Below, one piece after another: positions 8,433 through 13,710 of a DNA stretch of 64,000 bases. The notes beneath the pieces are model-generated. The model made no database searches, was not told the DNA's origin, and saw nothing but the letters and a program-made list of their open reading frames with translations. The translations under genes and the position numbers were made by a program. The stretch is taken from positions 330,874 to 394,873 of the forward strand of contig VGGR01000001.1 in assembly GCA_016868585.1 (NCBI GenBank), given 5' to 3'. The DNA is from Bacteroidota bacterium (GTDB taxonomy: Bacteria > Bacteroidota > Bacteroidia > Chitinophagales > Chitinophagaceae). Within the stretch, counting starts at the first letter, position 1. Every line of letters starts with the position of its first letter.

Positions 8433-8598
8433 CCGTTCGCTTTGAAAAAACGGGAACAGATCTTTAGAAAACAATTGATTTTCAAGCTAAATGATTCAGT
8501 TTTTGTTGGAAAATAAATACTGAAAAATTTGGTAGACATAAATGGACGCTTACCTTCGCACTCCTGTTCAAAAAACCGGTAGGCTCGTAACGGCCGAA

Positions 8599-8608
8599 GA
8601 TCTTTGAA
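8599..8608 (+). promoter_or_regulatory. boxA-like antitermination element before 16S
   Basis: GATCTTTGAA resembles the rrn boxA core; matching CTCTTTGACA precedes 23S. Confidence 0.5.
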
Positions 8609-8614
8609 AGTTGG

Positions 8615-8666
8615 GAAACAATAGCACTCATTCTTGCTTCACGCGAGAATGAAACAAAAGGTAAGT
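8615..8666 (+). other. 5' half of 16S processing stem
   Basis: GAAACAATAGCA and AGGTAAGT complement TGCTATTGTTTC and ACTTACCT at 10283-10301; internal side hairpin CATTCTTGC/GCGAGAATG. Confidence 0.75.
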
Positions 8667-10530: not shown

Positions 10531-10604
10531 GGGGGATTAGCTCAGTTGGCTAGAGCATTAGCTTTGCAAGCTAAGGGTCATCGGTTCGACTCCGATATCC
10601 TCCA
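10531..10604 (+). tRNA. tRNA-Ala(TGC)
   Basis: GGGGGATTAGCTCAG...TTTGCAA...ATCCTCCA. Confidence 0.96.
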
Positions 10605-10613
10605 CAGATCTTT

Positions 10614-10661
10614 AGATGTGATTCATAATGGTGAATCATCTGGTTCAAGTCCAGCACATCT
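10614..10661 (+). other. tRNA-like element lacking a D-arm (candidate mini-tRNA or tRNA remnant)
   Basis: Perfect 7-bp acceptor-like stem AGATGTG/CACATCT enclosing hairpin ATTCA-TAATGG-TGAAT and T-arm CTGG-TTCAAGT-CCAG. Confidence 0.55.
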
Positions 10662-10692
10662 GCTTGTTCGCTATTTGCGAATCAGCTCTTTG

Positions 10693-10715
10693 ACATATTG
10701 GAAAATAAATGTTAG
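10693..10715 (+). other. 5' half of 23S processing stem
   Basis: ACATATTGGAAAAT and ATGTTAG complement CTAACATTTTCCAATATGT at 13659-13677. Confidence 0.75.
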
Positions 10716-10836
10716 ATGAGTATCTAACAATTCGATCACAATTTTAACAATCACACCATTTTTTGGTTGGTCTGAAGAAATGTGGTCGGGTAACAACTAC
10801 AAGAATAACAAATTCTAGTTTTTAATTTTTTTAAAG

Positions 10837-13658: not shown

Positions 13659-13677
13659 CTAACATTTTCCAATATGT
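13659..13677 (+). other. 3' half of 23S processing stem
   Basis: Complements 10693-10715. Confidence 0.75.
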
Positions 13678-13710
13678 TAATCTTATTGCTGCAGCAATGC
13701 AGTGAAGATC

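Follow-up and report, generated by a model that had tools for sequence, protein, structure and literature searches.

A shortened tRNA-like structure in the rRNA operons of Chitinophagaceae

Between the tRNA-Ala and 23S rRNA genes of the window (the whole stretch of DNA analysed, 64,000 nt) lie 48 nucleotides that resemble a shortened tRNA, which raises the question of whether they are a chance fold, the relic of a gene or a structure with a role of its own. The element occupies positions 10614–10661 of the plus strand, on which all features given below also lie, and it was characterized by its sequence, fold, covariance model and covariation. A sequence-only reading had reported it with a sequence and coordinates that proved exact on re-reading. 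Its acceptor-like stem, seen in both fold and covariation, is formed by AGATGTG (10614–10620) and CACATCT (10655–10661). These strands enclose a single hairpin, ATTCA-TAATGG-TGAAT (10621–10636), whose loop has a final G, like that of most relatives, the trinucleotide CAT, and a T-arm, CTGG-TTCAAGT-CCAG (10640–10654). The element is followed by G-C-T (10662–10664), an N73-C74-W signature resembling the 3' ends of the tRNAs of the same genome.

The minimum-free-energy fold of the element is the structure just described (−15.2 kcal/mol). Shuffled versions reached −9.85 ± 2.28 (z −2.35), and 3 of 200 shuffles folded equally well. This fold energy is modest and, taken alone, suggestive rather than decisive; it is the comparative evidence that shows the fold to be no accident. 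ARAGORN called tRNA-Ile and tRNA-Ala upstream in the window and nothing at the element, and on the element itself it made no tmRNA call with a tag peptide. At the gathering threshold, Rfam identified 16S, 23S, 5S and two tRNAs in the rrn region of the window and left the element unmatched. The Rfam search proposed in the sequence-only reading found no relevant family at E ≤ 10 either, with no match to tRNA (RF00005) and nothing meaningful. The best weak match, HPnc0260 (minus strand, E 0.96), merely mirrors the T-arm and is irrelevant. The literature searched contained precedents and no description of this element.

The upstream tRNA-Ala (TGC) extends from 10531 to 10604 and does not encode CCA. 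Its discriminator is A10604, followed by C10605, and the end called by ARAGORN, 10605, takes in this C74; counted from A10604, the gap to the element is indeed the 9 nt reported earlier. Upstream of the element stands a boxA-like motif, AGATCTTT (10606–10613; AGTTCTTT in most relatives), and such a motif is found 7–25 nt upstream in 47 of 56 matches. Downstream, a small hairpin, TTCGC-TATTT-GCGAA (10667–10681), separates the element from boxA-like AGCTCTTTGACATATTGG (10684–10701), the 3' part of which opens the 5' strand (10694–10717) of a 23S leader-trailer helix predicted from pairing with CTAACATTTTCCAATATGTTAA (13659–13680). This predicted helix starts inside AGCTCTTTGACATATTGG and so leaves the element slightly outside pre-23S. 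BoxA-like motifs stand on both sides of the element before 23S, and also before 16S; the window genome has a boxA-like sequence in its 16S leader, AGATCTTTGAAAGTTGGGAAAC (8598–8619), and, unlike some relatives, no copy of the element there.

Some spacers of relatives showed further features. In three of them (L012, L016 and L057) the sequences flanking the first boxA and the element seemed complementary by eye. Four (L012, L031, L050 and L064) share a stretch upstream of the element, TTACCGGCAGCA ... TTGTGTCACTCACTGCA ... CCGGTAA, which has complementary ends, lacks parts in some members and by eye resembles a structured insert. In L009 (G163), a degenerate second tRNA-Ala-like copy directly follows tRNA-Ala, 5' of the element.

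Conservation and covariation in Chitinophagaceae

Spacers of the family were collected by similarity to tRNA-Ala/23S, their sequence was inspected between the last tRNA and 23S, and a covariance model was built from 21 sequences. As the sequence-only reading had proposed, they were compared across the family: of 44 readable tRNA-Ala/23S spacers, taken from 43 Chitinophagaceae genomes with the window counted, 41 matched the model in the corresponding position, two of them weakly (L010, E 0.22; L056, E 0.017). The three spacers missed by the model look altered by eye, with T-loop AGCGAGA in L012, an enlarged element in L027 and no T-arm in L064. Nearly all spacers carry an element of 44–57 nt with a common plan and differing sequence, as illustrated by AGATGTT-GAC-TACAG-GTC-TG-CAGA-TTCGTAA-TCTG-AACATCT (L016) and TGATAAT-GGC-ATTGAG-GCC-TA-AAGG-TTCGTAA-CCTT-A-ATTATCA (L021). 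Named genomes identified as carriers by a pattern scan belong to Segetibacter, Terrimonas, Niabella, Hydrotalea, Puia, Pseudoflavitalea, Paraflavisolibacter and Pollutibacter, all Chitinophagaceae, while four short carrier contigs assigned to Saccharimonadia/Saccharibacteria and Amoebophilaceae have most likely been mis-binned. These results confirmed that the original observation was genuine and concerned something bigger than first claimed.

A whole-genome search with the model gave extra matches about 2.1–2.2 kb upstream of the spacer element. They show that at least seven genomes have a copy in the 16S leader (G005, G023, G121, G004, G056 and G192; weaker in G117 and G059). The leader copy is flanked like the spacer copy by AGTTCTT / AGTTCTTTGA motifs, and stands directly before the 16S leader-trailer helix, preceded by a promoter-proximal AGTTCTT-like motif and followed by AGTTCTTTGAAAGTTTGGAA. 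Leader and spacer copies of one genome differ in sequence. No model match was obtained in the 16S leaders of the window, G162, G118, G019, G069, G087 and G068. The existence of a second copy indicates that the element is not merely a decayed third spacer tRNA. Six 16S leaders (L065, L124, L126, L134, L138 and L142) have tandem promoters (TTTG...TTTGCA), followed in several by an AGTTCTT motif of their own.

Covariation was assessed on 56 model-aligned rows (54 distinct), and one of these, L131, a chance match away from any rrn operon, was still included in the pairing count and the covariation test. In this alignment, which was fitted to the structure, 91.1% of cells were paired, against 69.0% after shuffling and 34–43% when the structure was slid. 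Changes on both sides were observed in 13 of 14 pairs, and the covariation score was 0.546, compared with 0.179 ± 0.013 for shuffled and at most 0.110 for slid controls. The covariation test used a G-test with average-product correction and 40 alignments simulated on a FastTree tree, which was built from the same short columns; 7 of the 14 pairs, spread over all three helices, were unmatched by any simulated pair, and no significant pair fell outside the structure. The compensatory changes sought in the 7-bp and T-stems were therefore found, in the hairpin as well, and together with the tree-based test they strongly support the earlier proposal of a maintained structure. Moreover, the conservation of U55-C56-R57 and C74 is confined to one strand, a sign of selection on the RNA. 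The element is thus a conserved structured RNA without an Rfam family and undescribed in the literature searched.

Among the genomes tested, the element was shown to be restricted to Chitinophagaceae. Model R1, run over 290 genomes of the class, gave weak matches at most outside the family; in the seven that were inspected (L038–L044), the retrieved flanks contained no start of 23S, and one of the matches was an ordinary tRNA-Val. Model R2 found none in 30 sister-family genomes and one match in 40 other Bacteroidota genomes (E 0.037), away from any rrn operon. Empty results in draft genomes carry little weight, as such assemblies often lack rrn operons. When 27 spacers of other Bacteroidota were scanned with a descriptor, none matched at 7 bp, and a looser rule retrieved one 43-nt case (L075/L206/L207).

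This 43-nt sequence, present in both rrn operons of G567 (L206 and L207), a member of another Bacteroidota family, is a compact tRNA-like TTCCGCG...CCGGG-TTCGATT-CCCGG-GGCGGAA-ACA. Other tRNA-like pieces were sporadic in the spacers of family f41, and the L197 spacer, also outside Chitinophagaceae, contains a tRNA 3' half. Spacers L092/L176 (G338) and L089/L202 (G367) contain, from tRNA-Ala to 23S, a tRNA-like sequence of full size, which ARAGORN does not call and which most relatives in their family lack. It comprises an acceptor, a D-arm-like hairpin, a long anticodon-arm-like hairpin and a T-arm (TTCGACT / TTCGAGA); the D-arm-like hairpin of L089, GCC-ATTGG-GGC, loosely resembles the Chitinophagaceae hairpin. 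In family f84 (L079, L080, L081, L085 and L090), the region from tRNA-Ala to boxA has a shared stem with a GGGY..GYAA..CCCCGG core that is not tRNA-like.

tRNA-like anatomy and possible roles

Anatomical features were counted in 53 distinct rrn copies, L131 having been removed. In the T-loop, U55-C56-R57 is invariant (53/53), T54 is present in 46 and A58 in 24. The description of TTCAAGT as a canonical T-loop holds in the window, but fewer than half of the relatives keep its A58. The T-stem of the element has 4 bp. N73 is a purine in 44 of the 53 copies and C74 is present in 46, with A or T next in 46; full RCCA is encoded in four. Real tRNAs of these genomes end alike: the tRNA-Ala and tRNA-Ile of the spacers terminate in A73-C74, and in the window all ten tRNAs have C74 and none has full CCA. 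The invariant parts of the element are thus those of the tRNA elbow and 3' end. The hairpin joins the acceptor without a gap, and its loop, mostly 5–6 nt long and without a constant triplet, has G as its last base in 41 of the 43 copies parsed by the stem finder. In tRNA, the D-loop nucleotides G18 and G19 are contacted by U55, C56 and R57. A hairpin directly after the acceptor, with a G-ended loop, is therefore best read as the equivalent of a D-arm, and the T-loop may contact the hairpin-loop G in an elbow-like manner. The missing arm is then probably the anticodon arm, so that anticodon-arm-less describes the element better than the D-arm-less of the sequence-only reading; that reading was right that there is no 7-nt anticodon loop, which no copy has, and probably wrong about the D-arm.

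As its shape was kept while its sequence changed, the element very probably has a role, so far undescribed, in making ribosomes. We consider it about 50% probable that it mimics a tRNA in cis, within the pre-rRNA of Chitinophagaceae, and that RNase P and/or RNase Z recognise it; a cleavage guide for these enzymes, as suggested in the sequence-only reading, is still the leading idea. The acceptor stem and T-arm would stack as an 11-bp rod beside one D-arm-like hairpin. The element precedes boxA and the leader-trailer helix in pre-23S and, for some species, in pre-16S as well. Its elbow and acceptor end would be recognised by RNase P, cutting at the 5' end, and/or by RNase Z, cutting after N73, and the cut would detach upstream RNA (the tRNA-Ala trailer or the promoter leader) from the pre-rRNA, with a putative benefit to ribosome maturation. 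This mimicry is favoured because the kept features are those that tRNA enzymes read, because the window genome encodes an RNase Z homologue and CCA-less tRNAs, and because an archaeal precedent exists; a separating cut would also make sense outside the predicted 23S leader-trailer helix. The main counterpoints are redundancy with the neighbouring tRNAs and non-canonical T-loops. In the spacer, a further cut a short way downstream looks redundant, since RNase P and RNase Z would already cut its two real tRNAs. More than half of the relatives lack A58, which the classical T54-A58 pair requires; in four copies, A54..T60 could form a longer T-stem instead. In addition, the acceptor/T rod has 11 bp and not 12, and the leader copy is absent from many members, including the operon of the window. 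More tentatively, such an anticodon-arm-less, family-specific mimic may belong to an antitermination/processing module used before both 16S and 23S, where tRNA machinery would act on pre-rRNA as it is made. Ribosome production might in this way be tied to the state of tRNA processing, and a stable mini-tRNA with a CCA tail might be released.

The main alternative gives the same position another meaning. As a counterpart of boxB, the element would stay uncut and, as a nascent-RNA structure beside boxA, bind a Nus-type factor or RNA polymerase in support of rrn antitermination or co-transcriptional folding. Its position fits the boxB-boxA-boxC order of E. coli (PMC10250234), with flanking boxA-like motifs before 23S and 16S and the leader-trailer helix directly after boxA. 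This explanation is possible if doubtful, for it accounts neither for the tRNA-elbow residues and N73-C74 tail nor for the retention of a three-helix junction in place of a simple hairpin. The tRNA-like top half, the 3' end suited to CCA addition and the copies that encode full RCCA would also suit a decoy or tether for tRNA-handling proteins or a ribosome-assembly factor, or a released stable RNA of about 50 nt, perhaps CCA-tailed. We regard this as unlikely: covariation speaks for the structure and not for a released product, and embedding in rrn operons beside boxA suggests a local role.

Two further explanations would deprive the tRNA likeness of its function, and both are very improbable. 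Unannotated tRNA-like sequences do occur at times in the same spacer of other Bacteroidota (L092, L089 and L197), as would suit a functionless, drifting remnant of an ancestral third spacer tRNA, an origin that the sequence-only reading had also considered. This origin is now disfavoured, and drift is largely refuted by the family-wide compensatory changes; 16S leaders carry copies too, no copy in leader or spacer has an anticodon loop, and in L034 a complete tRNA-Val stands between tRNA-Ala and the element. The likeness might otherwise be superficial, the element being a three-way junction for pre-rRNA folding or RNase III/E access in which the T-like hairpin is a longer stem with a short loop. 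Among 52 loops, further closure could indeed occur through T54-A60 in 29, A54-T60 in 4 and T55-A59 in 38. However, the TTCAAGT of the window's group is unable to close further, columns 54-60 and 55-59 were below significance in the covariation test, and U55-C56-R57 is invariant whichever bases close the loop.

Comparison with known systems

Shrunken tRNA-like folds recognised by tRNA enzymes include D-arm-less mitochondrial tRNAs and the MALAT1 mascRNA. The element is a fold of this kind, for which enzyme recognition is predicted. D-arm-less mitochondrial tRNAs keep a 7-nt anticodon loop, which the element lacks, and decode; mascRNA is eukaryotic and is cut from a lncRNA. Like the tRNA-like domain of tmRNA, the element keeps the acceptor and T-arm of the upper tRNA half and has no normal anticodon arm. 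The tmRNA, whose 5' end is cut by RNase P (PMC3985003), is long, free and equipped with a tag ORF, whereas the element is a 48-nt cis structure without an ORF or SmpB context. The element offers a natural minimal substrate for asking which tRNA parts RNase P and RNase Z require.

In the rrn operons of E. coli, boxB, boxA and boxC follow one another after the promoter and before 23S, and the role of boxB has been called puzzling (PMC10250234). The element occupies the boxB position: it is structured and precedes boxA and the leader-trailer helix in the 16S leader and the 16S-23S spacer, though the leader copy is absent from the window and several relatives. The E. coli boxB is a plain hairpin, whereas the element is a junction of three covarying helices with tRNA-elbow residues and a 3' end of tRNA type. 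Should it work together with boxA, it would be a natural, structured and variable boxB counterpart.

Holzle et al. (2008, 2012) reportedly described 'tRNA-like elements' in Haloferax volcanii, with a tRNase Z substrate upstream of 5S. In that archaeon a tRNA-like structure preceding the 5S rRNA is a proposed tRNase Z substrate (PMC5627344). In both systems the precursor carries a tRNA-like fold just ahead of a mature rRNA, and this fold is a candidate signal for tRNA enzymes. The Chitinophagaceae element differs in being bacterial, in lying before 23S and 16S by boxA, in lacking an anticodon arm and in its family-wide covariation, and its cleavage is putative. If it is cut by tRNA enzymes, bacteria would mark rRNA borders by tRNA mimicry besides real tRNAs and RNase III helices. 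Whether it acts in this way or with boxA, the element of these soil and freshwater bacteria adds a conserved and so far undescribed RNA to an operon that ranks among the most intensively studied in biology.
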